Shown one piece after another: positions 1 through 23,300 of a stretch of DNA of 41,067 nt. The position numbers were made by a program, and so were the translations under genes. This stretch comes from a virus. Below the pieces are notes generated by a model, which saw nothing but the letters and a program-made list of their open reading frames with translations, did not search any database and was not told where the DNA came from. Location: IMG/VR virus record IMGVR_UViG_3300009433_000013, positions 1-41,067 of that record; one strand, written 5' to 3'. The number at the start of each line of letters is the position of its first letter. The first letter of the stretch is position 1.

Positions 1-30
1 GAACAGGACGCCTGGCTTAGGGAGAGGCAT

Positions 31-1554
31 ATGCCCGAACCTAAAACACGGTGGCTGGTCGTTATAGTATCGTTAATCATAGCAACAGTGATTACTTATA
101 ATGCTAATAACTCTTCTCTGTTAAATGAGAGGATTCTAAATTTCTTTATCGGAGGCGCTTTTCTGTGGAGCACTCTCTTCGACAAACTTGATAAAACATT
201 AGAGCCCGTAAGTGGAACAGTAATACTCGGACCATCTATCTACCAGGATATTGTATACTTATTTATCTGGGTTTTCTCGTTGGTTTATCCTGTTTATTTT
301 ATACCATTTTTCACTATAGGGTCTTTATGGTACTTTTCTAGGTTTAATTCTATTTCTGCTACAGAAATTTATATGCCTCATAAAGTTGCTTGTTATTTGA
401 TTTCATATTATATTTTGAGTGCTTTTGTTGAGGTTCCTCCCGAAATATTGATAATTACATTATCGGCGGTCTGCGGAGTACACTATTTCTCCTCGGGTCT
501 GGGAAAATATAAGATACAATGGGAGAGGGTTAATCTTTTAGGAAATATAGCCCATGCCGCAAAAAATCAAAATAATTGGGGATTAATAGCCGATCGTTCA
601 TGGTTCCCGCTCATGCAAAAACTCAATGTCCCATTGCAGACCGCAGTAGTTTATGTTGAGATGGCTGCTGTGTTTAGTGTTATCGATTATCGACTGGGCT
701 TGTTTTGTTTTGGTTTTCTGTTCTTGATGCACTTGGGAATATTTATTTCAACAGGAATATTTTTCTGGAAGTGGATGGCTGTATTGGTTCCGGTTATCTT
801 TATGATCTATGGACTACAACTTCAGGTTTCCGAGATAACCTCGAATATTCCTTTGGTGATTTCGTATATCATTGCCATCGCTTTCTCATATTTACTTCCA
901 TCTATTCCTAGTTTAGTTTGGATTGATTCACCACTGAGTCATAAAATCACATGGATTATCAAGTCTCCAACTACAGAGAGTACCTATGAAATAAACCCTT
1001 ATGATGTTCGTCCATATGATATGTCTTTATCTCAGGGACGTCTAGGTGTATGTTATCCTTCTGATCTTTTTAATATGATGGGTTGTTTAGGAGCGTTAAA
1101 ACCTCCTTCTAGTCCGGAAGATATAGGAGAATTTCTCGCTCACTACGCTAATAGGTTAAATGTGTTGTCTACTAAGAAACTAGAGGAAGAACAGGTTAGA
1201 CCCGCTTTTCTTGAATTATACAATCAGGTGAAAATGTACGATAACTTTCTCAAGGATCAAGAGTTACCCGATTGGATGAAAAAGCATAAAAATGATCAGT
1301 TAATTAGGGGCATAACCGGTATTCTAGGCTGCCTTGAGAAAAGGTCCACTAAGCGACTCTTTATTCCTAACGTTCATATATGGAATCTTAAAAAAAAGGA
1401 TGACAAGTCGGTACTTCAAGATATATTGTCCGAGAGTTCATCTATATTAGAAATAAAGAGACAAGTATTCTTTTATAGCAATTATCATAATAAAAGTTTT
1501 ATCATACATGAAAGTCAATATGAGATTAATATAGGGAATTCGGAGATTGGGTGA
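31..1554 (+). CDS. HTTM-like multi-pass membrane protein
   Basis: This 507-residue protein has many hydrophobic segments in its first ~300 residues, starting with a helix at about residues 8-24. The stretch around residues 200-265 (LGLFCFGFLFLMHLGIF followed by a FFWKWMAV segment) resembles the HTTM family, membrane proteins related to vitamin-K-dependent gamma-carboxylase. The last ~200 residues are soluble and rich in charged residues. The next gene encodes a DCC-family protein, and HTTM and DCC genes are frequent neighbours in bacteria, which supports the call. GGAGAGG at 21-27 supports the ATG at 31, but the frame is open back to the window edge, so an earlier start is possible. The gene looks more AT-rich than the tail genes, hinting at acquisition. 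The reaction and substrate are unknown; it could also be an unrelated polytopic membrane protein. Confidence 0.62.
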   Translation: MPEPKTRWLVVIVSLIIATVITYNANNSSLLNERILNFFIGGAFLWSTLFDKLDKTLEPVSGTVILGPSIYQDIVYLFIWVFSLVYPVYFIPFFTIGSLWYFSRFNSISATEIYMPHKVACYLISYYILSAFVEVPPEILIITLSAVCGVHYFSSGLGKYKIQWERVNLLGNIAHAAKNQNNWGLIADRSWFPLMQKLNVPLQTAVVYVEMAAVFSVIDYRLGLFCFGFLFLMHLGIFISTGIFFWKWMAVLVPVIFMIYGLQLQVSEITSNIPLVISYIIAIAFSYLLPSIPSLVWIDSPLSHKITWIIKSPTTESTYEINPYDVRPYDMSLSQGRLGVCYPSDLFNMMGCLGALKPPSSPEDIGEFLAHYANRLNVLSTKKLEEEQVRPAFLELYNQVKMYDNFLKDQELPDWMKKHKNDQLIRGITGILGCLEKRSTKRLFIPNVHIWNLKKKDDKSVLQDILSESSSILEIKRQVFFYSNYHNKSFIIHESQYEINIGNSEIG

Positions 1555-1928
1555 TGATTGTATGGTATGACGCAGATTGCGGAATTTGTTCAAAATTTAT
1601 AGATACGGCTTTATATCGAGTCGATACCCAAAATATATTTTTTATACCGAATAATTTTGAAGAAAAAGTACCTCTAACCTTATCTCTCACTCATTATAAT
1701 TCCCTCAAAGAGAAGACAATAATAGTCCAAGATGAAGAAGGAGTTGTTTACACCCACCATGAGGCAATCGCTGAGATATTAAGTAGGATGGGCGGCTTTT
1801 ATACCCTTGTGTCAAAAATTATGAAAGCGCCTGTAATTTCACCCATTTGCTATTGGAGTTACAAGATATTCGCCCGATACCGACATTGGATAAGCAAACT
1901 TTTTGGCTTAAATCAATGTAAAATATAA
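1554..1928 (+). CDS. DCC-family (DUF393) thiol-disulfide oxidoreductase-like protein
   Basis: The N-terminus carries the family signature YDADCGIC (usual form YDGDCPxC), with the CxxC pair near residues 9-12, followed by a thioredoxin-like length of about 125 residues. A tyrosine/arginine-rich tail with a late cysteine (ARYRHW ... NQCKI) also fits DCC proteins. The ATG at 1554 overlaps the upstream TGA as TGATG; a GTG at 1551 would add one residue. GGAG at 1542-1545 lies eight bases before the ATG. Translation is therefore probably coupled to the HTTM-like gene, and the two products probably act together, the soluble redox protein serving the membrane protein. The redox role is a family prediction and is not shown by the sequence alone. 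Confidence 0.8.
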   Translation: MIVWYDADCGICSKFIDTALYRVDTQNIFFIPNNFEEKVPLTLSLTHYNSLKEKTIIVQDEEGVVYTHHEAIAEILSRMGGFYTLVSKIMKAPVISPICYWSYKIFARYRHWISKLFGLNQCKI

Positions 1929-1986: not shown

Positions 1987-2838
1987 ATGAATGTTGGTAT
2001 TGTTGGGTGCGGATTTGTCGGCAGTTCCTTAAGGGAAGGTCTTCGAGATTCTGTAACTGTTAATGTGTATGATAAATTCAATACAGACTTATCGACGGTC
2101 GATTCATTAAGTGATCTAGTAACAGAAAGTGATATTCTCTTTGTGTGTCTTCCCACTCCTATGCGACGAACAGGAGAGTGTGACACCACTCTCGTGGAAA
2201 ACACAGTTCGCCTTATTGATAACTATTGCGAGGGAGATGATAAAGTCGTTGTGATTAAATCTACAGTTCCTCCAGGTACCACTAAGCGCCTTCAATTAAT
2301 CACTCGTGATTGTTGTAGTATTATTTTTAACCCAGAGTTTTTAACCGAAGCCAATCATATTGAAGATTTTAAAAATCAAAAACGTATTATTTTAGGGGGA
2401 GATAACTGTAAGGAAGCCTTGACAAAAGTTAAGAGCATGTATATGAAGCAGTTCCCTAATGTTCCTTATGTTCTGTGCGGTTCTCTGGAAGCCGAACTTA
2501 CTAAATATTTCTGTAATTGCTTCCTAGCAACTAAGGTATCTTTTGCAAATGAAATGAAACAGTATTGTGATGCCCTTGGTGCTGATTACGACAGGGTAGT
2601 AGAATCCTCAGTTTATGATGACCGAGTCGGGAAGAGTCATTTATCAGTTCCTGGTCCAGATGGTCAATTGGGGTTTGGAGGATCTTGTTTTCCTAAAGAC
2701 ATAAATGCTCTCATACACAGCATGAAAGCAAAAAATGTTAATCCATCCCTTCTGTCGGCGGTGTGGCAAAAAAATTTAGAAGTTAGACCAGGAAAAGACT
2801 GGGAACAATTAAGAGGGAGAGCAGTAACAGATGACTAA
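1987..2838 (+). CDS. UDP-glucose/GDP-mannose dehydrogenase family protein, short form
   Basis: The product probably oxidises a nucleotide sugar (such as UDP-glucose to UDP-glucuronate) with NAD. The N-terminus has the Rossmann motif GCGFVG (residues 7-12), followed by STVPPGTT, FNPEFLTE, and the active-site stretch GFGGSCFPKD with catalytic Cys234. A conserved Lys/Asn helix (LTKYFCNCFLATK) precedes it. At 283 residues it holds the NAD-binding and central domains but stops where family members continue into the C-terminal UDP-sugar-binding domain (full length about 390-450). GGAGG at 1971-1975 lies eleven bases before the ATG. It overlaps the epimerase gene by eight bases, so the two probably form one sugar pathway. 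The exact sugar is not known, and the missing domain makes substrate assignment unsafe. Confidence 0.85.
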   Translation: MNVGIVGCGFVGSSLREGLRDSVTVNVYDKFNTDLSTVDSLSDLVTESDILFVCLPTPMRRTGECDTTLVENTVRLIDNYCEGDDKVVVIKSTVPPGTTKRLQLITRDCCSIIFNPEFLTEANHIEDFKNQKRIILGGDNCKEALTKVKSMYMKQFPNVPYVLCGSLEAELTKYFCNCFLATKVSFANEMKQYCDALGADYDRVVESSVYDDRVGKSHLSVPGPDGQLGFGGSCFPKDINALIHSMKAKNVNPSLLSAVWQKNLEVRPGKDWEQLRGRAVTDD

Positions 2839-3730
2839 GAAAAAATGTTTAGTTACGGGACATAAGGGTTATATTGGATCCCGTCTTTATCGTGCCTTGT
2901 TGAAAAGAACAGATTGTGAGGTTTTGGGTATCGACTCAGATGATCTGTTGGGTAATAATATTCTCCAATTGTTTAGCGGCTCTCCTTCACACCAAAAGAT
3001 GAGAGAAAAACTGGAAGAATGGTCTCCGGATTACATCTTTCATCTAGCGGCCATCCCCAGGGTTGGAGAGAGTATCGATAATCCAGTCCAGACTATGCTT
3101 AATAATGTAATGGCTGGAGCCATCATGTTAAATTTTGCAAAAGAGTGCAAGGTCAAGCGATTCATATATTCAAGTTCGTCTAGCATAGAAGGGAATGGTA
3201 GTGGACCCATGAGTCCTTATGCTTTGCAGAAGTATACTACTGAGTTGGAAGCCGGAATTTATTCTGACTTATTCGGTCTTGATACAGTATCTTTGCGCTA
3301 TTTTAATGTCTATTCTGAAGATCAACCAGCAGAGGGCGCTTATGCCACTGCGGTTGCGAACTGGATGAAACATATTAGAGACGAGGAAGAGCCGTTCATT
3401 ACTGGTGATGGGGAACAAAGACGGGACATGCTTCACGTAGATGACGCCATCGCAGCCAATATTTTTGCAATGGATTATGAACAAAATTTCAAGGGTGCGG
3501 TATTTGACGTTGGAACGGGAGAAAATATATCTCTCAACGAGATGAAAGAAATAGTTCTTTCTCACTTGCCGGATATAAACTTTGATTACGTAAAAGACCG
3601 CAAAGGCGACGTGAAAGAAACTAAGGCTGATCCATCCGGTCTGAAAAAATTAGGATGGAAAACTAAAATTGATATTAAAAAAGGCGTTGATCGCTGTTTC
3701 AAAAACTTAAAAAAGGAGTTAACCAAATGA
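2831..3730 (+). CDS. NAD-dependent nucleotide-sugar epimerase/dehydratase (extended SDR)
   Basis: A 299-residue extended short-chain dehydrogenase/reductase. It begins with the Rossmann motif GHKGYIG (Gly10, Gly13, Gly16). It has a serine-rich active-site strand YSSSSS before the catalytic pair Tyr130-x3-Lys134 (YALQK), then SLRYFNVYS, and RRDMLHVDD, which is typical of UDP-sugar 4-epimerases. The length is close to the family norm of about 310-340. A purine-rich GGGAGAG lies just before the ATG, within the end of the dehydrogenase gene. Paired with the dehydrogenase, it could convert UDP-glucuronate to UDP-galacturonate or interconvert UDP-glucose and UDP-galactose; the sequence does not decide between these. 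A dehydratase role is less likely. Confidence 0.85.
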   Translation: MTKKKCLVTGHKGYIGSRLYRALLKRTDCEVLGIDSDDLLGNNILQLFSGSPSHQKMREKLEEWSPDYIFHLAAIPRVGESIDNPVQTMLNNVMAGAIMLNFAKECKVKRFIYSSSSSIEGNGSGPMSPYALQKYTTELEAGIYSDLFGLDTVSLRYFNVYSEDQPAEGAYATAVANWMKHIRDEEEPFITGDGEQRRDMLHVDDAIAANIFAMDYEQNFKGAVFDVGTGENISLNEMKEIVLSHLPDINFDYVKDRKGDVKETKADPSGLKKLGWKTKIDIKKGVDRCFKNLKKELTK

Positions 3731-3906
3731 AATTATCAAACCAAGCAGTAGGTGCCCTTCTCATGACACTTCAAAAGTGTATTGCTGAGGAGGTCGATAT
3801 TACAGAATTACTATCAGACTGGAATCTGGAAGTCAAGAACGATGAGGTTTTTGTCACTAATCCGCCCCCAGTTCGTAGCGCCGTTACTACGGATGTGGTA
3901 GAATAA
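3727..3906 (+). CDS. small conserved phage protein, function unknown
   Basis: This 59-residue gene fills the gap between the epimerase and the zinc-ribbon gene. Its ATG overlaps the epimerase stop as ATGA, and its TAA overlaps the next ATG as TAATG. GGAG at 3715-3718 provides a ribosome binding site. The product has an amphipathic N-terminal helix (NQAVGALLMTLQKCIAEEVD), an acidic middle and a C-terminal TNPPP turn. From memory, small proteins with the same layout (LxxLQ ... DI ... NPP) occur in marine T4-like phages next to structural and sigma genes. No function is known to me. Confidence 0.75.
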   Translation: MKLSNQAVGALLMTLQKCIAEEVDITELLSDWNLEVKNDEVFVTNPPPVRSAVTTDVVE

Positions 3907-4172
3907 TGCCGCAATATGTCTATGACTGTCTTGCTTGTGAGAGCCAGATGCATATTAGGCATAGTTATCGATCAGTGGACATAACTTGTACCGCATGTGG
4001 ATCTGACAAGATCGTTAAGAATTTGTCTACCCCATTCAACGATGCCAGGGTAAAAAACAATAATCCCGAGAATTCTGTTGGTGACGAAGTAAAAGAAGCA
4101 ATCAAGAACAATGGTCATGAATTGCAAGAGATGAAGAAGAAAATTAAAAATAGAGTATTTGAGAAGAAATGA
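3906..4172 (+). CDS. FmdB-type zinc-ribbon protein
   Basis: An 88-residue protein with a zinc ribbon in the first 35 residues: Cys8-x2-Cys11 and Cys28-x2-Cys31, starting MPQYVYDC, as in FmdB-family putative regulatory proteins. The rest is a charged helical tail ending KKKIKNRVFEKK. Its ATG overlaps the upstream stop, and its TGA overlaps the next ATG (ATGA at 4169-4172). The position just before the late sigma gene fits a role in late transcription or protein-protein contact, but that is inference; FmdB-type ribbons lack an established activity. Confidence 0.75.
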   Translation: MPQYVYDCLACESQMHIRHSYRSVDITCTACGSDKIVKNLSTPFNDARVKNNNPENSVGDEVKEAIKNNGHELQEMKKKIKNRVFEKK

Positions 4173-4477
4173 CATATATTTTAGCGTTTTTGGTCTTAAT
4201 TCTGGGTGCAGCCGTGGGTATGCTCGTGTGGTATATCCGAGGCTTACTCGAATATACTAAAAACGTAAACGAAGATGTTTTCATTGCCTCTTCTCTGATT
4301 AAGAGTTTTAATGAGCACCTAGATAAGGTTTATAATGCCGAGAGATTCTATGGTGATTCGACCCTTGAAGGGCTTGTGGCACATATAAAAGACTTGATGG
4401 AAGAGTTAGACATCTTTATTAAGCAGCAAAACATTTTTTTAGATTCGGATAACAATGAAAAAGAAGAAGAAGAGTAA
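4169..4477 (+). CDS. one-pass membrane protein, function unknown
   Basis: A 102-residue protein with a clear N-terminal membrane helix (residues about 3-24, ILAFLVLILGAAVGMLVWYI), then a helical soluble part and an acidic tail ending EKEEEE. There is no cleavage-type site, so it is probably anchored in the inner membrane with the acidic end in the cytoplasm or periplasm. The last 23 bases overlap the sigma factor gene. From memory, similar short anchored proteins sit beside the late sigma gene in related marine phages, but I do not know a function. It does not look like a holin, which usually has a shorter soluble part and no long acidic tail, though that cannot be excluded. Confidence 0.7.
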   Translation: MTYILAFLVLILGAAVGMLVWYIRGLLEYTKNVNEDVFIASSLIKSFNEHLDKVYNAERFYGDSTLEGLVAHIKDLMEELDIFIKQQNIFLDSDNNEKEEEE

Positions 4478-5144
4478 AAATCATTATTTTACAAAAGTAA
4501 CGGAAGACGCCATCGTCGCCTATTGTGCGACAGAGGATATTGGTATTCGATCGAAACTTTATGTAGAAGAAATCCAGCCAGCATTCAATGAGTTGGTGGA
4601 CAAGATTGTCTATACTTATAAGTTTACTTCTCTTGAAAATATTGATCACCTGAAAGATGATTGCAAGGTTTGGCTTACCACAATCCTAGGTAAGTTTAAC
4701 CCCAACCAAGGGACGAAAGCATTTTCTTACTTTTCAGTCGTAACAAAAAACTGGTTTACACACAAAGCGAAAAAGCAAACCAAAAAGAATCGCCGTGAAG
4801 TTAATTATGACTCAATGATCCGAGAAGTCGAAGCCGTCTCTGCATCTGGGCATAGTGATTTCTATGATGCTGCTGAAGAACACCAATACTGGGCCTTCTT
4901 GTTATCTGAGATCGAGACCTGGCGCACTTTAAGTTTAAAACCCAACGAGGAAAAGGTTCTTAACGCTATAGAAACCCTGATGAAAAATATTGATCAGATT
5001 GAAATCTTTAATAAAAAGGCAATTTATTTATACATGAGAGAAATCACTGGCTTGAACACCAAGCAAATTGTTAGTTGCTTGAATAAAATGAGAGTTCGCT
5101 ACCGCACTTTTAAGAAAAAGTGGGACGAAGGAGAAATTAACTAA
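4455..5144 (+). CDS. late-transcription sigma factor, T4 gp55-like
   Basis: The 229-residue product resembles T4 gp55, the sigma factor that directs host RNA polymerase to late promoters. The region 2-like core lies at about residues 62-105: acidic DHLKDD, then FNPNQGTKAFSYFSVVTKNWF, matching the F-P-G-A-F-YF pattern of sigma region 2 that binds core polymerase and the -10 element. The C-terminal part (about 190-225) is a basic helical segment (GLNTKQIVSCLNKMRVRYR) that may act like a helix-turn-helix. T4 gp55 is 185 residues and ends in a hydrophobic clamp-binding motif, which I do not see here. There is no ribosome binding site before the ATG, so translation is probably coupled to the overlapping upstream gene. 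The N-terminus is very basic (MKKKKKSK). Confidence 0.8.
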   Translation: MKKKKKSKNHYFTKVTEDAIVAYCATEDIGIRSKLYVEEIQPAFNELVDKIVYTYKFTSLENIDHLKDDCKVWLTTILGKFNPNQGTKAFSYFSVVTKNWFTHKAKKQTKKNRREVNYDSMIREVEAVSASGHSDFYDAAEEHQYWAFLLSEIETWRTLSLKPNEEKVLNAIETLMKNIDQIEIFNKKAIYLYMREITGLNTKQIVSCLNKMRVRYRTFKKKWDEGEIN

Positions 5145-7779: not shown

Positions 7780-10700
7780 ATGAGTGTTATTTTAACAACC
7801 CGACAAAAGAATATCGTCAACCCATATGCTGATCAGACATATCAGGACCGCTTAGGTGGTCAGTTGGGAGTTGATCCTTATGATTATCATGGCATTCGCA
7901 ACAAATTTGTGATTGAGGCTATCCACGATAGTTATATTAATTTTCAAAACTTTCCTAATATTGGAACTGAGATGTCCCCGGATGTTGCGCTCCCTGATGG
8001 GCAAAGAATTATAACATCCACCGATGCCCGTGCCTACTTTTCAATCTATCCCCAGAACGGTAGACTAACTCGGGATTCCATAACTGGAACACAGGCTATG
8101 GAGCCTTGGGGTGGAGATGAGGCACAGAGAGAACTAGGAACTTTAGTTGCTCGTCTACGTGAAAATTCTGTAATTCAAAATTATACAACATTCACTACAG
8201 AATTATCTCAAGCCAGCGCCGGCGCTTCACAGCCCGATCAGGATATCGCTAACCTTATGGCAATTAATCCTACTCACTCATTCCCATATTTGGCTCGATT
8301 AAGGTCAGCATTAGGTCTGCGTACAAGGGATATTATAAATCCAAATACTGCACCACTTGAAAACACTTTAATATCTCCCCAGGTTAATACTTTCGTAGGG
8401 TCAGAGTCTAATGTGGATCTTTACGAGTGGACAAAAAATGCAGAACCAGAAACAGACAAAGAGAAAGTGTATTTCAATGTAGTTGACGATAAATTCTATT
8501 ATGTTGTTCGAACAGATTTAACAGATTTTAATTCTCTGGATATAGCCTGGATTCTGCCAGAACTGAAAAGCCAAGGAGTACTTCAAAAATATCAAGATAT
8601 TGCCGACCGAGGAATTAAAGAGATACTAAAATTCTCAGGTAGATTATCTAGAGGGAATTATCTGGCACTACAAGAGACGTTTGGGGGAATTGAGGCACCA
8701 GAATTTCAACAATATAACTTAGAGGAAGAGGATACTCCTCGTTTTCGCAAGTACAATATGTTTACTTCCAAGGATCCCCGTCCGGGATCCCGCTGGGTTT
8801 GTGCCATCACCATTGACCAGGAAATTATTAATAGCCTGCCAGTCACTGACGCAATTTCCTATCAGGATGAGGCACTTACTCCCTATCAACTTTCTTTGGT
8901 AATAACCGACACAGAAAAAACAAATGTAAGCAGTCGAGAGCCTCGATTTTTTGAGAACCTAAACCTTGCACAGAAATTGGTTGATGTCTCAGACATGCTC
9001 GAAGAATATGGCCAGACCCTAAGAGAAGAAGGGCTTGGACCTATCCTCTTGAACAATATAGACCTAGATATTGAATCGCAAAAGATCGAGTCATTTTATG
9101 ATTTATTCGGGAGTTTTTATGCTTATAATCGACTGTCCCTGCAAGATGATGATCTTGTACAATTTTTCTTTGACGACTCATTTCGCTTATTGTATATCTG
9201 CATAAATGGGGTGGCCTATACACGGGCAACGGGTAATCCTAATTTTCAGCCTGAGCCTGTAGAGGGCACTCCCACTGTAGTTTTGGACGCTTTTGCCTAC
9301 TTAACTGCAACTACATTCTCTTATATCTATAATGCTTTGGAAATATCGAATGAGTCTTTGTTGACTACCCCACAGACTCGCCAGCCATGGGCAACATTTT
9401 TGTCGATGTATACCTTTCCACAGCCTGATTTTTCACCCGAAAAGATTGATCAAGTAAAAAGGAATCAAGGGACATTTGATCTTTCAAACACTTTATCCCA
9501 GCAAAAGAATATTTTTACAAAACTTGCTCAGTATTCTCGTATTCCTCAAAGCGAAGCAAATCGGCTTTGGAACAAAAAAGAAAGGTATGTATTCCTGAGT
9601 GACGCCTTATTTGCTTCGGGCTGCGACACCCTCGCCGCCCAAGCCCTTCGAGAGACTCTCACCGCTATAGCGGTATTAGAAGGAAAGATTTCAGTACGTA
9701 CATATTTGAGGAGAATTATTCAAGTTCTGAAAAGGGAAGTGATTCAAGATGAGACCACCCGGCGCTTACTTACCGCCGGCGCTACTGCTGATCCTCAAAA
9801 TATATCAAGGGAAGTGCAACGCCTTGTAGAGAATCAGATTTTCTGCTCTTTGGATGTATTAGGAGGGGCAGTTGGAGCCGCAGTTTTACAAGCAACTGAT
9901 TCACAGCCCGCTACTAACCAGTTGTCTCGGGTCTCCAAAGATTTAAAACAACCACTGGTTTTAGAATTTAAAAAATTACCAATGATGAATAAGCAAAATA
10001 GAGCCAAATCGGCTTATCGTGCCGTCATTAATAGAATTATTACTAATTTTTTGAAATCTCTTTTGGCAGGCGTTGCCAAGGATCTAGTAAAGGCTGTGGC
10101 AGGATGTGGTCCTGCTGCTGGTCAGAGTGAACTAGACCTACTCCAAAATGCCTTTAGGCAGTACGATTACGGCGGAGTAGAGCTTAATAATTTACTCATC
10201 AACCTCGACATCGTACAAATTGCTAAAGATGTAGATCTGGTAAATGTTAACCAAGAGATCATCGATGATGAGACAATAACAGTCAAAACAGATCCTAGTG
10301 CTGAACAACTTCAAAAATTCATTGCTGATGTATCTAAGATGGTTACCCCCACCGAGATGACCAGCCTACTCGGAGGTGATGCTGATGACCTATTGTATCG
10401 CTCTATTTTAGAAACCGTGAAAGATGGATCAATATCTTGGCCAATCGGAGTCCGTCACAAAGATCCGGGAGACCAAAACGTCGGTGAAGAATTTATTCAG
10501 GCGATCAAAGATGAATTTACGGGTGAAGACTATGAATTTATATACGAAACAATAAATCCCTCCCCTTATGATGACTTTATTTTTACTAAGGAAAAGATAA
10601 AGGAATTTTTTGCAGCCATTGGTGCCGGCTTAGGGGAACTAGAGTCAGAAGATTCTCCATCTGCGCTAGATGAATTTTGCGAAAATCGAGATCCTGACTT

Positions 10701-13587
10701 AACTACTCTTAAGTTGAGGTTGAGTGAGGCTCAGATGATTGGACAATTTGATCAGGTATTTTCTAGTAAAATTGCTCGGATCAATTCTTATTGTGATTAT
10801 CTTCGCAGTTTGCAAAGCCTCCAATTTCAGTTGGACCAATTGTTAGCTAGCCTGCCGATGATGGAGTGGTATAATAGTATCTTGAGATTGTTGGCTCGAA
10901 TCTTGCCCTATCTTACTAGCATGTTATCGGCATGGTGGAAAAATGCTTTTGGCAAACAGCCTCAAAATGTTAGTGATCCACGCTATAATTTATATTCTAC
11001 AGAGATTGGAATTCAATTATTTTATCAGAGTTATTATATGCTCCATAGTTCCATGGTCGTGCCTCGATTGCAAAAAACAAGTACAAATCGTTTTGTTTAT
11101 AGAGTACCTATTGTTAACTATTCTACGGATCGTGTAGAGATACCTTCAACCGCCTACAAGGAGTTAGGAACCCAACTTATCTTACCTTATGCACACTATG
11201 GTATAACAGACGACAGTACATCAGATGCTCGCATCGGCTCATACGCTGCCTCCACAGCACCTCAACATTTACGAGAAAAAATTGGAAACTCAGCCATCCC
11301 TGCTCGTCCGGACGTAGCATTAGGACAATACGAAGGAGTCTATTCAGAAAGAGCCACGGAATATATTAAGCCATATTTGAAACAGATCCAATACAGGGAG
11401 CCTTATATCGGATTCTTTCCCACTGTGGCTTTATCTGTCCGTAATAGCAATGATCCAATAGAGCCAGGTATTCGTATTTATGTTGATAGCCCACAGAGTT
11501 CTTCTAGGGGATTTGGGCAAACTAACCCCTATAATAATGAGTCGTTGTTGGCATCTTGGAACCCTCAGGATTTTGCTACTGAGCCTAATTCTCCTGTATC
11601 TTATGGAATGCTTTTAAATAATTTAATAGAACCTGGTACACAAAATTTGAATACTGGCGGCACTGCCCTTCCGAGTCTTTCTTCGGGAACAGGGGCTGGA
11701 CTACAGCGCCCCTCAAGTGCTGTACAACAAATGATTAATAGTTTTTTCATGACGTCTTTAAAATTAGTAGATGATGACAATCCTTTTAGTATTGACACAA
11801 CAGATGAAAGTCTGAATGTTATAAGTAACCCCTCTGAGTTTGTTGAAACACAAATTGATCGTGTTATTACATCCGATGTTGGAAAGCGCCGCTTGCCTCG
11901 TTACATCTACGGTACTAACTTAGAAGTATTTGTTGCCAATGATGATATTTGCGTCACTGCTGACCAAAAAGCGGACGCAGAAGCCTGGGTCAGCGTGATA
12001 CAGTCTAGGATACAACAGTTCTTTGTTAATACTTTGCCGTTAGCACGAGTATATCCTTGTTGGAATAACACGGGAACTGTAAATTTGATTACTGATTATT
12101 TATATCGAAAAATACGAAAAGAACTTAAGAGCAGAAATATATTAACTCCTCTGTTACAGAATTTTGATATGATTGAGAAAGTTTATGCGGACTTCCCTGT
12201 TGAAAACCCTCAGTTAGTGATAAGTGACAGTAAAACACCAGACGAAAACCTCAAAGAAACAATTCAGAAAATATTTGTAAGAATGTTAGATAACATTGCC
12301 AGAACATCAGAATATTCTCTGATCAACCGATCAGTTTATGACAATTTTGAAGTACTGGGAAGGGATAACCCTTCATATACTAAATATCTGTCCTCGTTGT
12401 TTTTGTTCTACCAAGAGATGGCCTCTCAAATTCAGCAAGGTAATTACGCAAACCTGGGGATTAGAGACAACCAGGTCACTGCTGCGCTTAGGCTATTGGG
12501 AGAAATGAGGGACCCGAATACTCAAACTGTGACGGCTTTCGGAGAACAGGTGGGGTCATATTATTTCCCCATTGGACCTCTGTATGCAACTTACTTAATA
12601 TATTATGACAACTCAGTAAAATATGGGGAACGTTATAGTGACATCTACTATAGATCTCAGGTAGAGATTGCAGGGAGTGACGACGCTTTCCTGGGCGCAG
12701 TCAGAGGGCAAACATACTCCAAGTTTGCTAATAAATATGTAGGGTTCCCTGTCTCAGTTCTAGAATATAATGAATCTTATGATATTACATATTATTCCAC
12801 ACCTCAGGTTGAAGAGAGGGTTGCTTATTTAGATCGGCTTCTAACTGATCCTAACCTCATTGAAACCTCGCTTCTTGAGAGAATTGATATTGAGGACCGA
12901 ACAAGAGGAGTTAGCCAGCGGACTTCAGAGGCAGCTTTGACTGTCCTTGATAACGGTTACCGGTATATGAGCCCTTATGATGCACCTCCAGAATATTATG
13001 ACGCAATGGGGACGGTATTTTCTTCCGCTAAAGATTGGCTTGGAGGCAATAATCCTCTCGGCAATCTCGACGCTTGGTGGAAACAACCTGAATATATGCC
13101 TCCATTCACTGAGGAACAAATTGAGGAAATGTATGAAGAGTATCTGGTGAGGAGCGAACAGGAAATCAGAACGATCGTGTCACAGAATTATAAACCCGCC
13201 GGCGGCGAGCCCGTAGCCCGATTAGCCAACCTACAAAGTGCATGGAAAGCCTCGGCACGTAATTACTTTGCAGCCCTTGGAAGCAGGGATGTTGGTCCTT
13301 ATGGCAACGCCGCCTCGGCGCAAGGTGCCCCAAATTTGGTATCAGTCGATGAATTATGTACTTATAGTAGTACTAGGTTGGATTCATATGTAAATGGATT
13401 ATTTGGCGAAAGGTCGTTTGGTGATGTGCTTAGCGAGACACCAATAGTGAAGCGTATGGTTTATGGTGTAGTACTATCTACACTAGGTGATGCCCAGGAA
13501 TACGTCTGCTTAAATACTGGACCTTCTTTACAAAGCGTTAGAATTGAAAAAAATACACTAGAAACACTAATTAAACCAAATGAGTAA
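7780..13587 (+). CDS. very large tail/baseplate protein, function unknown
   Basis: A 1935-residue protein with no domain I recognise. There is no signal peptide and no convincing membrane segment; a strongly amphipathic or hydrophobic stretch near residues 1020-1060 (MMEWYNSILRLLARILPYL) is more likely a core or coiled-coil helix. The first third is mixed alpha/beta, the middle (about 600-1060) largely helical, and about 1090-1450 rich in Tyr, Pro and Ser as in beta-structured virion proteins. It lies between the hub genes and the gp25-like gene, which it overlaps by eight bases, so it is very probably a baseplate or central hub component. It is much larger than T4 gp27 or gp53 and may combine several roles. 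AAGG before the ATG is a weak ribosome binding site. Confidence 0.75.
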   Translation: MSVILTTRQKNIVNPYADQTYQDRLGGQLGVDPYDYHGIRNKFVIEAIHDSYINFQNFPNIGTEMSPDVALPDGQRIITSTDARAYFSIYPQNGRLTRDSITGTQAMEPWGGDEAQRELGTLVARLRENSVIQNYTTFTTELSQASAGASQPDQDIANLMAINPTHSFPYLARLRSALGLRTRDIINPNTAPLENTLISPQVNTFVGSESNVDLYEWTKNAEPETDKEKVYFNVVDDKFYYVVRTDLTDFNSLDIAWILPELKSQGVLQKYQDIADRGIKEILKFSGRLSRGNYLALQETFGGIEAPEFQQYNLEEEDTPRFRKYNMFTSKDPRPGSRWVCAITIDQEIINSLPVTDAISYQDEALTPYQLSLVITDTEKTNVSSREPRFFENLNLAQKLVDVSDMLEEYGQTLREEGLGPILLNNIDLDIESQKIESFYDLFGSFYAYNRLSLQDDDLVQFFFDDSFRLLYICINGVAYTRATGNPNFQPEPVEGTPTVVLDAFAYLTATTFSYIYNALEISNESLLTTPQTRQPWATFLSMYTFPQPDFSPEKIDQVKRNQGTFDLSNTLSQQKNIFTKLAQYSRIPQSEANRLWNKKERYVFLSDALFASGCDTLAAQALRETLTAIAVLEGKISVRTYLRRIIQVLKREVIQDETTRRLLTAGATADPQNISREVQRLVENQIFCSLDVLGGAVGAAVLQATDSQPATNQLSRVSKDLKQPLVLEFKKLPMMNKQNRAKSAYRAVINRIITNFLKSLLAGVAKDLVKAVAGCGPAAGQSELDLLQNAFRQYDYGGVELNNLLINLDIVQIAKDVDLVNVNQEIIDDETITVKTDPSAEQLQKFIADVSKMVTPTEMTSLLGGDADDLLYRSILETVKDGSISWPIGVRHKDPGDQNVGEEFIQAIKDEFTGEDYEFIYETINPSPYDDFIFTKEKIKEFFAAIGAGLGELESEDSPSALDEFCENRDPDLTTLKLRLSEAQMIGQFDQVFSSKIARINSYCDYLRSLQSLQFQLDQLLASLPMMEWYNSILRLLARILPYLTSMLSAWWKNAFGKQPQNVSDPRYNLYSTEIGIQLFYQSYYMLHSSMVVPRLQKTSTNRFVYRVPIVNYSTDRVEIPSTAYKELGTQLILPYAHYGITDDSTSDARIGSYAASTAPQHLREKIGNSAIPARPDVALGQYEGVYSERATEYIKPYLKQIQYREPYIGFFPTVALSVRNSNDPIEPGIRIYVDSPQSSSRGFGQTNPYNNESLLASWNPQDFATEPNSPVSYGMLLNNLIEPGTQNLNTGGTALPSLSSGTGAGLQRPSSAVQQMINSFFMTSLKLVDDDNPFSIDTTDESLNVISNPSEFVETQIDRVITSDVGKRRLPRYIYGTNLEVFVANDDICVTADQKADAEAWVSVIQSRIQQFFVNTLPLARVYPCWNNTGTVNLITDYLYRKIRKELKSRNILTPLLQNFDMIEKVYADFPVENPQLVISDSKTPDENLKETIQKIFVRMLDNIARTSEYSLINRSVYDNFEVLGRDNPSYTKYLSSLFLFYQEMASQIQQGNYANLGIRDNQVTAALRLLGEMRDPNTQTVTAFGEQVGSYYFPIGPLYATYLIYYDNSVKYGERYSDIYYRSQVEIAGSDDAFLGAVRGQTYSKFANKYVGFPVSVLEYNESYDITYYSTPQVEERVAYLDRLLTDPNLIETSLLERIDIEDRTRGVSQRTSEAALTVLDNGYRYMSPYDAPPEYYDAMGTVFSSAKDWLGGNNPLGNLDAWWKQPEYMPPFTEEQIEEMYEEYLVRSEQEIRTIVSQNYKPAGGEPVARLANLQSAWKASARNYFAALGSRDVGPYGNAASAQGAPNLVSVDELCTYSSTRLDSYVNGLFGERSFGDVLSETPIVKRMVYGVVLSTLGDAQEYVCLNTGPSLQSVRIEKNTLETLIKPNE

Positions 13588-15820: not shown

Positions 15821-17326
15821 ATGGCTATTAAGAAATATTACGCTACTAAAGACAATACCATAACTGACGCATTTAAAATTGATCTTCTGACTCGGGGCAC
15901 TGGGTCAAACATGGGTATTGCAGATATTTTAGAGACATTTGTGATCCATGGACAGACTTCTGCATCTATTAATGCCGGCAATGCGGAGCAGAGTAGGATA
16001 CTAATTCAGTTTCCAGTATCTACTATTGCTTCAGATATGTTGGCTGGTGTTATTCCTAACGATACTTCTAGTTTAAAATTCTATCTTAATCTTTATAATG
16101 CTCCCCACGGAAGCACTGTCCCGGTAGATTATTCTTTAGATGTTCGAATGCTCAGTCAAGCATGGCAAGAGGGTCGTGGATTGGACATGGATAATTATAG
16201 TGACCTGGGAGTATCTAACTGGATTTATGCTTCGGGAAGCACTGCATGGAACGCTACCGGCTCTTCTTATCTCTATGGTGCTGGGACTTCTGCCACTGCT
16301 CCGTTTGAGAGTGGACTTGAAAATATTCGTCTAGATGTCTCTAGTATAGTAAATAAGTGGTTAGATGCTACACCAAATTATGGATTCTTAATTAAATTTC
16401 CTGATGCTATTGTATCGGGCTCGACCACGATGTATACCAAGAAGTTCTTTGCTCGATCTTCTGAGTATTTTCATTATCGCCCAACGCTAGATGTTTGGTG
16501 GGATTCTACTCGTCGAGATAATCGGGGTAATTTTGCTATTAGTAGTAGTATGGCACCTGCCGCAGATAATCTTAATACTCTTTTTCTTTATAATGTGGTC
16601 AGGGGTCAATTGCAGAATATCCCTGGGCTTATAAAAGATACTTTAAGTGTAGAGATATTTTCAGGAAGTCAAGCAGCGACTGTTCCGGTTGTGCCTACTG
16701 GTAGCGCCCTGGATATAGTTCGTTCTAATAGTACGACCTCAACCATGGTGACGGGCGGCGTTTTATTTGAAAATGGAGTAAAGACTACAGGAGTCTATAC
16801 TGCCTCTTTCGCATCAACTAGTTCTTTCGAACAAATATTTGATGTTTGGTCTACGGGATCTGGAGCACAAAGAGTAGAGTTTTTCACTGGATCTTATATA
16901 CCAAAATCATTAAACACGGCGGATCTTCAATATGATGTAAAGTATATTACGACCATCACTAATTTACAAAGTGCATATTCTCAAGGTGATAATCCTACTT
17001 TGCGTGCTTTTACTCGTAAAAAAGACTGGAGCCCCAACATTTATACAGTCTCAACCAGACATATCGAGCCCGAAGTGATAGACAACGCATATTATAAAGT
17101 CTACCGAGTAATCGATGATTTAGATGTTATTCCGTATGGGACTGGTAGTACTGATAATTATTATAGTCGATTATCATATGATATAAGCGGTAACTATTTC
17201 AAACTTGATACCAGTTATCTTGATCCTGGGTATGCCTATGGAATTAAGTTCTCTTACTACCTTCAGGGAACTTATCAAGAGCAGCCCGAAGTATTTAAAT
17301 TCCGTATTGAAGAAGAGAACACATGA
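15821..17326 (+). CDS. tail structural protein with DNRLRE-like beta-sandwich
   Basis: A 501-residue protein. The first ~235 residues follow the layout of DNRLRE-type carbohydrate-binding-like domains: an N-terminal YYATKDNTITDAF strand, RILIQFPVS, DVRMLSQAWQEG, DVSSIVNKWLDATPNYGFLIKF, and a closing HYRPTLDVWW. The rest is Ser/Thr/Gly-rich beta structure, typical of fibre or baseplate-periphery proteins. One base separates it from the gp6-like gene, and it overlaps the giant gene in ATGA, so it is part of the baseplate operon. It may attach fibres or touch surface sugars; binding to a sugar has not been shown for phage members that I know. Confidence 0.65.
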   Translation: MAIKKYYATKDNTITDAFKIDLLTRGTGSNMGIADILETFVIHGQTSASINAGNAEQSRILIQFPVSTIASDMLAGVIPNDTSSLKFYLNLYNAPHGSTVPVDYSLDVRMLSQAWQEGRGLDMDNYSDLGVSNWIYASGSTAWNATGSSYLYGAGTSATAPFESGLENIRLDVSSIVNKWLDATPNYGFLIKFPDAIVSGSTTMYTKKFFARSSEYFHYRPTLDVWWDSTRRDNRGNFAISSSMAPAADNLNTLFLYNVVRGQLQNIPGLIKDTLSVEIFSGSQAATVPVVPTGSALDIVRSNSTTSTMVTGGVLFENGVKTTGVYTASFASTSSFEQIFDVWSTGSGAQRVEFFTGSYIPKSLNTADLQYDVKYITTITNLQSAYSQGDNPTLRAFTRKKDWSPNIYTVSTRHIEPEVIDNAYYKVYRVIDDLDVIPYGTGSTDNYYSRLSYDISGNYFKLDTSYLDPGYAYGIKFSYYLQGTYQEQPEVFKFRIEEENT

Positions 17327-20300
17327 GCGTAAAAAAGTTATTTGACAAAAATAAGCAGGCAGTAACTGTAGGAAAATACCTACGACTAAGTGCTCCTGAC
17401 ACTTTAGGTGACGGAATTGAATCCGAGGCTCATCTCAAGGCTTCTCTTCAGAAACAAGATTATGTTCTGCCTCCTATCAATTATTCAAACCCTGAAGAGT
17501 TTGTCAAGTTTGGCTCGGCTGAACAGTATTATAAAAATGCATTTGAGTATATTTTAAGTTATTATCCTTACGATGGTTCTGAATTTGAAAAGGTAGATTT
17601 TTATAATAAACTTAATCCTGTTGAAAAATATTTCTTTGAGGAAATCTATCCTACATCTACTGGCTTTATACAGAATGGCGTGACTTATGGCGCTATTACC
17701 CCTCATCCATCAGGGTATGCCTCTTCCTCGGCTCAATATGTCCAAGTTAAGGGTGGTCCCCACAAAAATACTTTTTACAATGTAGAGCAGGATCGTACTT
17801 CTAATCTTGAGTTTGGCGGACCTGACGGGACAACAGTTGAGTTTTTCTATAAAAAAGCCGCCGCTATTGATCATACGGTAGAATCTCCTCGCCAGGTAGT
17901 TTTTGATCTATGGAATGGTGCCAGTACTACATCTGATGAATACGGACGACTTCGCATTGAAGTGGTAACTGGATCGAGTGATCATTTTGAAGTTACTTTC
18001 CGATCGGGATCTACTGGATTTGATAATGTTGTTGTACCCACGGCGACTACTCCGATCAATGATGATACTTGGAGAAACTTTTCATTCGTATTTAATACCA
18101 CATCTAGTTCCCCTACTCTGGACTTTTTTGCTAATGGAACTTGTATACAGACTGGAATCGCTCCAACTGTTGCTGGCGCAATAGGGACAGTCACTGGATC
18201 TATGATAGCCAATATAGGTGCCCTCCGAACCACACCTGCTGGTGCAGGCTTTTCCGGAGTAGACCAGGGCTATGGTAAACTTTCTGCATCGCTGGACGAG
18301 TTTCGTTTCTGGAAAACTGCCCGAAATGACGAGGAAATTGGAAGATACTGGTTCGCCAACGTAGGCGGAGGAAGTAACAAATATGATGTTAATGTTTCTC
18401 TCGGTGTCTATTTTAAATTTAATGAGGGAATTACGACCAATGCGGCTGTTGACCAGGTTATCATGGATTACTCTGGTCGTTTGTCTAATGGGTTGTACGT
18501 AGGTTACAACTCTACAAATACTCGTAATACAGCCTCGGCGATTAATCAGTTAAAAATAGAATCAATTCATGAGTTTGGTGATCCCATTGTTCGGTCTTCT
18601 AATCCCAACTATACAACCTTGTTGGCAGATTACATTCTGACAGGAAGTAATTATGATTATCAAAATAACGCCCGCTTATTGAACCATTTGCCTAACTGGA
18701 TAATCGAAGAAGAAGAACAGGGCTCTAACGAGATTGTTAGCCTAACACAGATTATGGCTAACTACTTCGACACAATTTATAATCAAATAACTTATATCAA
18801 AAACCTTCGTTACATGGATTATGTAAGCGGAAGCCTTTCCTCTTCTTATACACATTTTCCCTATAATGACAGGTTAGTTGAGAATCTAGGTATCGAGGCA
18901 CCAGAGTTATTTGCCAACGCCGGAACTCTTCAGCAATTCTTGCAGCGTGATGAGCAGATCAATTTTGACGACCAACTGGAAGATATTAAAAATTCGATCT
19001 ATAAGAACATTTATAATAACTTAAATTTCATTCTCAAGTCCAAGGGCAATGAAAAGGCGATTCGGAACTTCATTAGGTGCTTAGGTGTAGATGATGAAAT
19101 TATTGCGCTTAATACTTACCCTAATAACGCTGACTTCGAATTGGTCTCTAATTATAAGGCAGGCGTCAGTACTAAGAAGTTCGCTGACTTCACAGCCCAT
19201 CTGGACCAGGCGGATGACGAAGCAATTGTCTATCAGTATTATGATTCAACAAACCCTAATTCAGTAGGTACCATTTCTGGATCTACGTCTTTGGGGGAAT
19301 TTGCCTTTACTCTTCAGAGCGAACTTGATCTTGCCGTCAAACAGGATTATAGAAATTTAGGATATAATATTCCTCAAGTCGTGACAGCATCAGTCATGGG
19401 TTTCCATACTCCCGCCGACTCCTCTCCTACAATCACCGATACAACTTGGGCAGCAGCATCAAGCGATTACGGTCTTCAGGTACAGGTAATCAAGAGTCCG
19501 GGTGAATACCCAGAAATTTTCGAACCCGCACACAAAGTAAAAGATGCCTACTTTCTGGTTAAAGACCGAGAAGGTAAGACGCTCCTTACTAGTAGTATCT
19601 TTAATAATGTGTATGACAACACTAAGTGGAACCTGGCCTTGTCCTTACGCCCTGAGAGATATCAATTCTCTGACGGTGTTATCGGATCAGCAGTGGCTCA
19701 AACTGGCTATACTCTGGAACTCTATGGCGTTAACTACCAAAACGGCATAAAGAAGTATAGTTTTTCTTCGGCGACAGATCTTTCGGCAACTTCGGGATCT
19801 AATATCATAGAAAGTGCTAAAAAAGTATATCTAGGAGCATCTAGGTTTAACTTTACAGGAAGCACGCTGGTTAATACTGATATCAGGGGATCAAGCGTAA
19901 GATACTGGACAGACTATCTTCCAAATTCTACTGTTGATCACCACGCCAAAGAGGTTGATACCTACGGACGCCTCAATCCCTATAGAAACGCTTACGAATT
20001 TCAGAGTGCTGCTCCTAATGTTTATATCCCCAAGATTCAAACATTGGCACTCAACTGGGATTTCGCTGATATCAGTGGGAGTGATTCAAGCGGTCGGTTT
20101 ATGGTTACTGATTATTCCTCGGGCTCAAACGTGCAAGTTTACCCTAACGAGTACCAGGGTCCTGTCTTTAGTAATATTAATCTACGAGAACATACTGGTC
20201 GTGGCGACTTCTTTAAGTCTAGTTTCACGCCGGTAAGAAAACAGTACGTTTACACCGACCATCTTCAGATCCCCGAATATGTTGGCGGAGACAATATGGT

Positions 20301-23300
20301 CAATGTTCCTACTAGCGATGATGAGACTTTCGGTATTTATTTAAGACCTATTGACTTCTTCTTCGCAGTAGAGAGAAGCATGTATCGTAGTATCTCTAAT
20401 CGAATGTTGGAGATGTTTGCTTCTATCGAAGAATTTAATAATATCATAGGCGAGCCTGTCAACAAATACCGTCTAAATTATAAGCGAATGGAAAAGTTAA
20501 GAGAAATATTTTTCCGTAGAGTCAAAAATGATATTCCTGACTTTGATAAGTATCTCCGCTACTATAAGTGGATTGACACTGCGATGGGGGAGATGATCCA
20601 GGAATTATTCCCTGTTTCTGCCAAATACGCCCCAGAAGTTAGAAAAGTCGTTGAGAGTCATGTCCTTGAGCGGCCAAAGATTCAACACAAACTTACTATT
20701 CTAAGAGATAAGCATCCAGTAGCAGGAATCACCGGCAGCCTGGGCGCTGGCTTTGGGTCAGTTTGTCGTACCAGCCCAGGTTGGAAATTCAAACACGCAC
20801 CTATTCCTGCTCTTCAGAGTAGAAACTGTAACTGGTGGCGCACCCGAGCAGAAAGAGATGTTCCCCCCCTTATCGCTTCGGGAGGAAATTTAACCACTCG
20901 TAACGCTGTTTTAAACGCTGTACAGAAACAAGTAGATGGAACTAACTTCCTTTGTGTTGATGGACAAATAGTGGCTCCGATTTATGGCGGAATTAATCAA
21001 TACCTGAACAAAAAGAGGCGCATTCGAGATTACACTTTTGATCAATTCAAGAGTCTGGAGGATTGTGATGATGTTCTTGATCCCATGCAAAAGAAACTTG
21101 TTCCTTTTCGAGCAACAAAAGATGGTGTAAATTACAAAGGTGCTCAACTGACTCCATTCACCGCTATTAGTTCTAGTTTGACAACAGGCTATAATGCTCA
21201 ATTGAACAGTCTTGGTCTTACAGGGATCTCTCTTAATAATCTTCATGAGGACTCTATCTCTCCTTATCGTCATAGTGTGCCATTGCAGGGACCCTTTACT
21301 AAGCGTTGGGTCGGTGGTATCCAAGCACGTCATGTTGCACCATTTAGAACCATAGACCGCCGTGAAGAATACAATTTAACAATTACTTCGGGTACTGGCT
21401 CGGTTACGACTATAACGACAGGAATAATCCCCAAAGGTCAATACCTAAGAGGACTATCCTCAAAATCTCCTGTTAACCTTGCAAATATCAAAACTATTAT
21501 TACTGGCAGTACTCCTGGTGACGTTGTAAGAAAAGTCGGAAACTTTGAGAGAAACTATGAAGTTGTCCAAGGTAACAGTCGCTTTGAAACAAATATAGAT
21601 TTTATCTTTAATAATTCTCGTTATCAATACTCTATGCCATCGGCTTTTATTACGCCACCTGCCCGACGAACTAGTGGCTTGACTGGGTCCGCAGATTATC
21701 CGGCTCCAAGACAAGTGCCTAACCGAAGGAAGACGGAAGTAATTCTAGTTGATATGTTTGCTTCGCCTGGCTCTAAGGAAGATTCAAAGCAGCAGTTTAG
21801 AGATGTCAACTCTGATCAGTTTTCGCCCAATAGTGCGCTGCCTTTCCGAAATTTGGCTGTAATAAACCCTTATCTCAAGCGTTTAGGAACCCATTCCACC
21901 TTCGGAGGGTATCAATACGATCCAGCGACTGGTGCTCCTAGTACGACCCCTTCCGCAACTAAAATACAAAGAAATACAGTTTTACGTTTAGAGATGGGCT
22001 TTTCAGGAGCCGCCACCCCAACAACGGTAGGCACTGCTAGCGTTTACGATGATGGGTTTGTAACCCGCCCAGTCCCTAATGCTGATAGGGCTCAGTGGAC
22101 ATCCTATTTGTCTGGCTCTGAGAATGCTTCAATATATGACCAGTATGTTGCCTTGGGCAGTCGCTACCCAGCCAATATTACTTTTGTAACTCAAAGTGCT
22201 ACAGCCTACCCTTCAACTTTCTCTAATTCTTTAATTACTAATGCTGGCGGAAAGTCCGAATTTGTATGGGCAAACAATCGAGATTATGTCTCTTGGAAAC
22301 AAATGCAAGCCGGAAATTCTCAAAAGGCTCAATACTTTTGGCAAAATAATCTTTATGAGTTGTTACCCCAAGAAGTAGTGACGCTAAATGACGAAGTAAA
22401 ATTTGATGATGGTAGTAATGGCTCAATAGCCACTAAAACTCGTACAATATACAGTCGAAACGGACAAGCGGAGCCTCATTACTATTCCCAGAGATTTAGA
22501 GAAGCGCCCATTACTTCACGCTATAAAGCGTTACTCCATCAGATGAGGACTCCGATCGGAACACCCTCAAAGACATCAGAGCGTCATACTTCTATTGCCA
22601 TGGAATATACTTATGGAAATATGTTGATGGGGTTTGCTAACCGTGAGTTGAACGAACAAATCCAGGGCGATGTAAAATTTGCACATGGAAAGATAAAGCG
22701 CCCCTACGAGGTTTTAAGAGATCAATTCGTAGAAAATGTCCAGCGCAGTGTGAACGGTGCGGAATTAATTAAAGACTTTACTTATAGGGAAACAATTTAT
22801 CCGAAAGAAGTTTACACATATTTGTCACAGTCCCGTGCTCGCCAGGCTTTTGTTTATAGCCACTGGAGAGATGATGCTATAGTCACTGGTAGCGCAGCAG
22901 TGACATCGCTAACAGATTATTCTAAACTTATATCTCGGGTAAATATCGATGGCTTTAACCGACAGTCTACTCGCCTGAAGGGCGACTTTGTCACATCTCA
23001 GGGTTATCCGGTTCAAAACTTAGACCAGGTTCCGTATGAAGATCCCTCTTCACTGCCAGCGGGACCTGGATCTGGCTCAATATGGCCTCTTGACTCGTAC
23101 CTATATTCTGATTTCGATACGTCTTTGGTCACTGTGTTGACTGCCTCTACTCCAGTTGTTCTTGCGGATGCTGGTACGATGGCGGCTGGTGAGCTAATGA
23201 TGACTCACTATGGAACTATAAACGATAGAATTACTGACCCAGGTGGGTCTTTAAACAATGGCACGGCTGTTTATATAACTTCTAGTATTAATTCGGCACA

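Follow-up and report, generated by a model that had tools for sequence, protein, structure and literature searches.

To our knowledge, most bacterial HTTM proteins have no assigned function. HTTM and GGCX proteins have a polytopic core in which the elements Y..sG..K....W, E and H....G.F.W follow one another, and the same elements occur in the same order in the family of a phage membrane protein described here as A. In GGCX, the active-site lysine K218 is the base that activates vitamin K hydroquinone (available text of PMC12589487 and PMC9146348), and W223 lies in the vitamin K hydroquinone pocket (available text of PMC12589487).

Bacterial HTTM proteins can also be paired with or fused to DCC1-like proteins (PF04134, formerly DUF393), and in these pairs and fusions the membrane part precedes the DCC part, as it does in the phage. 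The bacterial fusions are one protein, whereas phage A and B come from separate overlapping genes, and, unlike the bacterial pairs and fusions, A belongs to a branch whose bacterial members have no adjacent DCC. We found no description of a phage-encoded HTTM or DCC protein in the literature searched; where DUF393 and phage occur together in the available text of PMC8612252, the subject is heliorhodopsin transcripts.

The glycan cassette of Synechococcus phage S-SCSM1 carries annotated glycosyltransferases, methyltransferases and nucleotide-sugar enzymes of the kinds found here, and its asparagine-synthase-like protein is 40% identical over 96% to the phage one next to A. Unlike the present phage, S-SCSM1 has no tblastn match to A or B, nor has any other of 50,697 phage records searched. 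A is also without a tblastn match in 72,556 plasmid records.

Gene pair on two phage contigs

The stretch of DNA analysed, the window, is a 41,067-base IMG/VR virus record that opens inside gene A (Table 1). We found that the TGA of gene A overlaps the start of gene B (GGGTGATG), which may be GTG 1551 or ATG 1554 and has GGAG a few bases upstream. The window sequence thus bears out the earlier note, which had described a polytopic protein whose stop overlaps the start of a YDADCGIC protein.

A scan of the viral collection found a second contig with both genes, IMGVR_UViG_3300025869_002638 (59,088 bases), which overlaps the window by 11,551 bases with 7 mismatches. None of these is in gene A, one is in gene B and silent, and three are in the dehydrogenase gene, one of them changing N to S. 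Gene A is complete on this contig, with its ATG at L002:9899, 3 nt past an asparagine-synthase-like gene whose stop is at 9895. The true start is therefore about 68 bases before the window (window base 1 corresponds approximately to L002:9971), and not at position 31 as had been proposed; the ATG at 31 encodes internal Met35 and looked like a start because the window edge cuts the gene. The A-B pair is real and unusual.

Table 1. Features of the phage locus and of two bacterial polytopic-DCC fusions. Coordinates without a locus prefix are window positions.
Feature	Coordinates	Strand	Evidence
Gene A, 3' 1554 bases of 541-aa polytopic membrane protein, HTTM superfamily by sequence	1..1554	+	overlapping contig, HTTM profile, bacterial family HMM
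Gene B, 125-aa DCC1-like thiol-disulfide oxidoreductase family protein, CxxC (YDADCGIC)	1551..1928	+	PF04134
Short UDP-glucose/nucleotide-sugar dehydrogenase, 283 aa	1987..2838	+	PF03721, PF00984, TIGR03026
NAD-dependent nucleotide-sugar epimerase/dehydratase	2831..3730	+	PF01370, phrog_540
Zinc-ribbon protein	3906-4172	+	matches in 60/74 related viral loci
102-aa membrane protein	4169-4477	+	matches in 63/74 related viral loci
Sigma-like protein (name from a weak PHROG label, E 0.14)	4455-5144	+	74/74 related viral loci
Asparagine-synthase-like protein, 447 aa, next upstream of A	L005:206-1549	-	PF13537, PF00733
Fusion, polytopic part + C-terminal DCC, 420 aa	L033:1447-2709	-	
Fusion, polytopic part + C-terminal DCC, 424 aa	L034:625-1899	+	

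Relation of gene A to HTTM proteins

The protein encoded by gene A has 7, 8 or 10 hydrophobic segments, depending on the threshold. It has no significant Pfam, PHROG or NCBIfam match and no PDB match by sequence or profile search; against PF05090, nothing was found at E up to 1 with the part in the window or at 0.01 with the whole protein. An AF2 model from a 4-row alignment reached a pLDDT of 40.

Relatives were found in bacteria. Four loci were returned from 84,980 bacterial and archaeal genomes: an Acidimicrobiales MAG (L007), an Actinomycetota MAG (L008), a frame-broken copy in a Verrucomicrobiaceae MAG (L009), and L010, which was rejected as a chance pattern match in another frame. With a profile of A, L007 and L008, the family was found in 5 of 387 genomes from the phylum of L009, the L009 genome included, and in 1 of 396 genomes from the phylum of L007, which is L007's own and has two copies. 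The resulting family of eight comprises A and seven full-length bacterial proteins (L007, L008, L022, L023, L024, L025 and L027; frame-broken copies in genome G004 lie outside it, and a 7-row alignment of the family omits L024). Lys193 and His268 are identical in all eight members and Trp198 in seven. An HMM of the seven bacterial members gave A 82.9 bits, and one reversed and 20 shuffled copies of A scored 0.1 or less.

When the family of eight was compared as a profile with one built from 19 PF05090 domains, Prob was 96 and P 4.8e-9, and control profiles (one reversed, five column-shuffled) reached Prob 0.3 or less. The 19 domains are those longer than 180 aa among 25 hits drawn from 44 listed matches. 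The alignment runs along Y..sGl.K....W, E and H....G.F.W. When single members were compared with the HTTM profile, Prob was 96 for L022, 76 for L007, 65 for L008, 56 for L027, 43 for L024, 13.5 for A (P 0.002, weak), 7 for L025 and 1.1 for L023. In comparisons with five single HTTM-type proteins, four scored above all 13 controls and the membrane part of L033 did not. An HTTM HMM built without the A family matched A alone among the 3,139 ORFs of 74 related viral loci (E 9e-4). By sequence, gene A is a diverged member of the HTTM superfamily, outside the curated Pfam family PF05090; the HTTM-like assignment in the earlier note stands at the superfamily level, through profile-profile comparison via the bacterial homologues and through the HMM among viral ORFs, but does not extend to a PF05090 match.

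The link to GGCX passes through L039, a member of the HTTM set that aligns with human GGCX residues 16-456 (E 5e-44). As read from the alignments via L039, GGCX K218 has its counterpart in K193 of A, and W223 in W198. The likeness has limits. The histidine of the GQxHxxDR motif of A's bacterial family aligns with a different residue in phage A, which counts against full catalytic conservation. In addition, the C-terminal part of A gave no alignment with VKGC-like proteins above controls (P 0.69), so a VKGC-type C-terminal part is not supported.

Gene B and DCC proteins

The assignment of the second protein to the DCC/DUF393 family was confirmed by a full-length match above the family cut-off. 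Residues 4-115 of gene B match PF04134 with E 7.3e-14 (53.4 bits, cut-off 27.8), covering positions 1-111 of the 113 in the profile with CGIC present. Seven aligned DCC proteins all share C10, C13, A72, R111 and C123. Gene B had no significant PHROG or NCBIfam match and no PDB relative by profile search, and its single-sequence model has a pLDDT of 37.7.

Among ten DCCs, a small set, the three best matches to gene B were L033 (53.5 bits), L047 (33.9) and L034 (33.5), all fused to or adjoining a polytopic or HTTM part; the fourth DCC so linked, L057, did not match gene B. A tree of 11 DCC proteins was set aside, with 6 of 8 inner branches open. Three further DCC candidates were discarded: in L074 the motif lies in a short frame with no DCC ORF, and in L075 and L076 the motif was absent from all ORFs of 60 aa or more. 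Separately, a bacterial DCC has matches in two Staphylococcus phage records that lack annotation.

Bacterial loci

HTTM and DCC proteins had been described as neighbours in bacteria, and this is true of some HTTM proteins but not of A's own relatives. Among 34 HTTM loci, one has a DCC next to the HTTM gene (L047) and one has it fused (L057); among nine DCC loci in genomes with A homologues, two have the DCC fused behind a polytopic part (Table 1), of which the L034 fusion has the G..K...W motif and the L033 fusion does not. None of the eight loci around bacterial A homologues has a DCC neighbour. DCC genes lie elsewhere in five of the seven genomes with A homologues, and two of the seven have none at all. 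Hence, a single phage and the gene overlap are the basis for coupling A with B.

Most of the same eight loci have genes of polysaccharide-type pathways. Six have Pfam glycosyltransferase matches (L022, L024, L025, L027, L029, which is L008, and L028, which is L007 and has a weak GT47-type match), and sulfotransferases lie at L023 together with a pair of asparagine synthases. At L026, where the contig ends and the copies are broken, no glycosyltransferase genes were noted by eye. We also found an asparagine synthase (PF00733) within 10 kb at five of the eight loci, compared with 0.14 expected from genome-wide counts. This expectation assumes random places and independent loci, but two of the loci share a genome and three of the genes are close relatives (70-100% identical), so the P of 3e-7 overstates the case. 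At L007, the asparagine-synthase gene is 360 nt upstream of the A homologue on the same strand. The phage asparagine-synthase-like protein has no significant similarity to that of L007 (E 0.37); hence, the phage and bacterial neighbourhoods are shared in kind and are not the same gene pair. A's bacterial family is found mostly in polysaccharide-type loci.

Phage sugar cassette and its variable site

The pair lies inside a sugar cassette, with eight sugar-type genes upstream and the UDP-sugar dehydrogenase and epimerase downstream. The order, backward from the asparagine-synthase-like gene, is an FkbM methyltransferase, a GT2-type gene, a double methyltransferase, GT1 and GT2, and farther upstream two GT1-type genes (one below the Pfam cut-off), a 279-aa frame, a 223-aa frame and PhoH-PIN. 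The position at the edge of the structural block, as the earlier note had it, is correct within the window, but the other side of the pair is made of sugar-type genes. Downstream of the sigma-like protein are an M23 peptidase and then gp25 and gp6 baseplate proteins. The 223-aa protein adjoining PhoH (L005:10271-10942, minus strand) has metallopeptidase-type matches below cut-off (E 6e-5 and 2e-4).

The dehydrogenase has matches to its N-terminal and central domains and none to the C-terminal domain. Related phages have the same short form at 277-289 aa (L099:6879-7712, L101:6647-7501, L102:4370-5206 and L130:6553-7422), so it is probably not a broken gene. Asparagine-synthase-like enzymes amidate uronic acids in O-antigen loci, and by family names the product of this cassette is perhaps a uronic-acid or uronamide glycan. 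The asparagine-synthase-like protein starts with MCG, a feature of glutamine amidotransferases, but the match to its synthase domain covers only positions 2-135 of 354.

A search with the sigma-like protein gave 74 viral loci (L078-L151), or 59 clusters once near-duplicates were collapsed, and 60 of the 74 extend 5 kb or more upstream, far enough to take in A. Judged by this gene, the closest phage records are Flavobacterium phages immuto (32%), an uncultured phage (29%) and Microcystis phage Mel-JY01 (27%). We found that the zinc-ribbon, 102-aa and sigma-like genes form a conserved anchor (3906-5144), which is the downstream border of a highly variable cargo site. The cargo in the 74 loci consists of varying sugar, methyltransferase and glycosyltransferase genes; upstream, an epimerase match is present at 39 loci, a dehydrogenase at 14 and the glycosyltransferase types at 1 to 16.

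A, B and the asparagine-synthase-like gene each occur at 1 of the 74 loci, the phage's own second contig. By HMM, there was no other A or DCC in these loci, and they had no other ORF of 150 aa or more with four or more hydrophobic segments. When the 50 longest of the related records were searched, A and B were again found on the phage's own second contig and were absent from the other 49. This contig was also the only one returned when the viral collection was scanned three times for A by motif.

Proposed role of A and B

The neighbourhood supports glycan synthesis or modification, as judged from gene families, and the HTTM core with a DCC partner suggests redox at the membrane. We put forward, at about even chances, that A and B are cargo of the phage glycan cassette and form a redox-linked membrane step of the glycan pathway. 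The data show the gene structure, the family ties, the neighbourhood and how rare the pair is; the catalysis, the quinone, the A-B coupling, the substrate and the product are what we infer. Within the cassette, A would act at the membrane on a glycan that is nascent or linked to a lipid, with a quinol bound near K193. B would cycle its CxxC such that A, its quinone or its substrate is kept in the right redox state, and the product would be a modified glycan, perhaps with uronic acid or uronamide, on the host surface or the virion.

A more specific form of this proposal is quinone-dependent glycan modification by a phage, in which an HTTM-core enzyme with a lysine-activated quinol and a dedicated DCC thiol partner would act on a sugar or lipid-linked sugar by vitamin K carboxylase-like chemistry, and its bacterial relatives would do likewise in polysaccharide loci without a dedicated partner. 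We regard this form as unlikely. If the chemistry holds, vitamin K carboxylase-like catalysis would extend beyond proteins, and a membrane redox step would join the means by which phages alter glycans. The family itself appears to be a diverged HTTM branch tied to glycan loci in bacteria and phage, and in the phage the membrane protein and a likely redox partner are encoded side by side in a compact operon.

Alternatively, A could retain the HTTM fold only and serve glycans at the membrane without redox chemistry, as a flippase, polymerase or transfer factor, and B could be an independent cytosolic redox protein that shares the operon. This reading is less probable than a redox-linked step, but it is the strongest of the alternatives. 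The eight bacterial loci without a DCC neighbour, the two of seven genomes with no DCC and the GQxHxxDR histidine not kept in the phage all fit it; the lysine kept in 8/8 members, the overlap of genes A and B and the adjacent or fused HTTM and DCC parts in bacteria speak against it.

Superinfection exclusion had also been suggested, together with redox or lipid modification of the host membrane. No evidence for superinfection exclusion was found, and the neighbourhood points to glycan synthesis. An action of the pair on the host membrane unrelated to glycans, whether by exclusion or by general redox or lipid change, would suit a polytopic A, a B of a thiol-redox family and a pair confined to this lineage among the 74 related viral loci, but the place of the pair inside a sugar cassette and the sugar loci around the bacterial homologues make it quite improbable.

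Very unlikely, in our judgment, is that A modifies a protein or peptide, by chemistry of the vitamin K carboxylase type, as in GGCX, or of the peptide-maturation type. The latter role is assumed for HTTM proteins in linaridin clusters (available text of PMC9927463), and the superfamily link and the K218/W223 correspondence agree with such chemistry. Against it, the C-terminal part of A is unlike that of VKGC-like proteins, the neighbours are sugar-type genes, and no candidate peptide or protein substrate was noticed among them.

Composition and origin

The pair had been described as AT-rich and possibly acquired. Overall G+C is indeed low, at 0.369 for A and 0.349 for B, the lowest of the 36 genes compared. 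However, third-position G+C (A 0.351, B 0.317) is within the range of the other 34 genes (0.278-0.457), and so is codon use (z of 1.7 for A and 1.5 for B; range -1.5 to 2.3). Hence, the A+T richness is mainly one of amino-acid composition, and composition does not support a recent foreign origin.

Acquisition is favoured in that the other 73 related loci and the 49 other long contigs lack A and B, but composition does not favour it. A and B look like an addition to the variable cassette in one lineage, and given their ordinary codon use, either this addition is not a recent one or the source genome had a similar composition. An assembly artefact that attached bacterial DNA to phage sequence, which the occurrence of the pair in one lineage and a window that begins inside gene A might suggest, is scarcely credible, as two contigs match over 11,551 bases apart from 7 differences, the second runs on through sugar-type genes into PhoH, the codon use matches the phage, and the conserved phage anchor is within about 2 kb downstream.

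Farther along the window, frames of 1,935 aa (7780-13587) and 3,311 aa (17323-27258) lie between or beside the baseplate genes.
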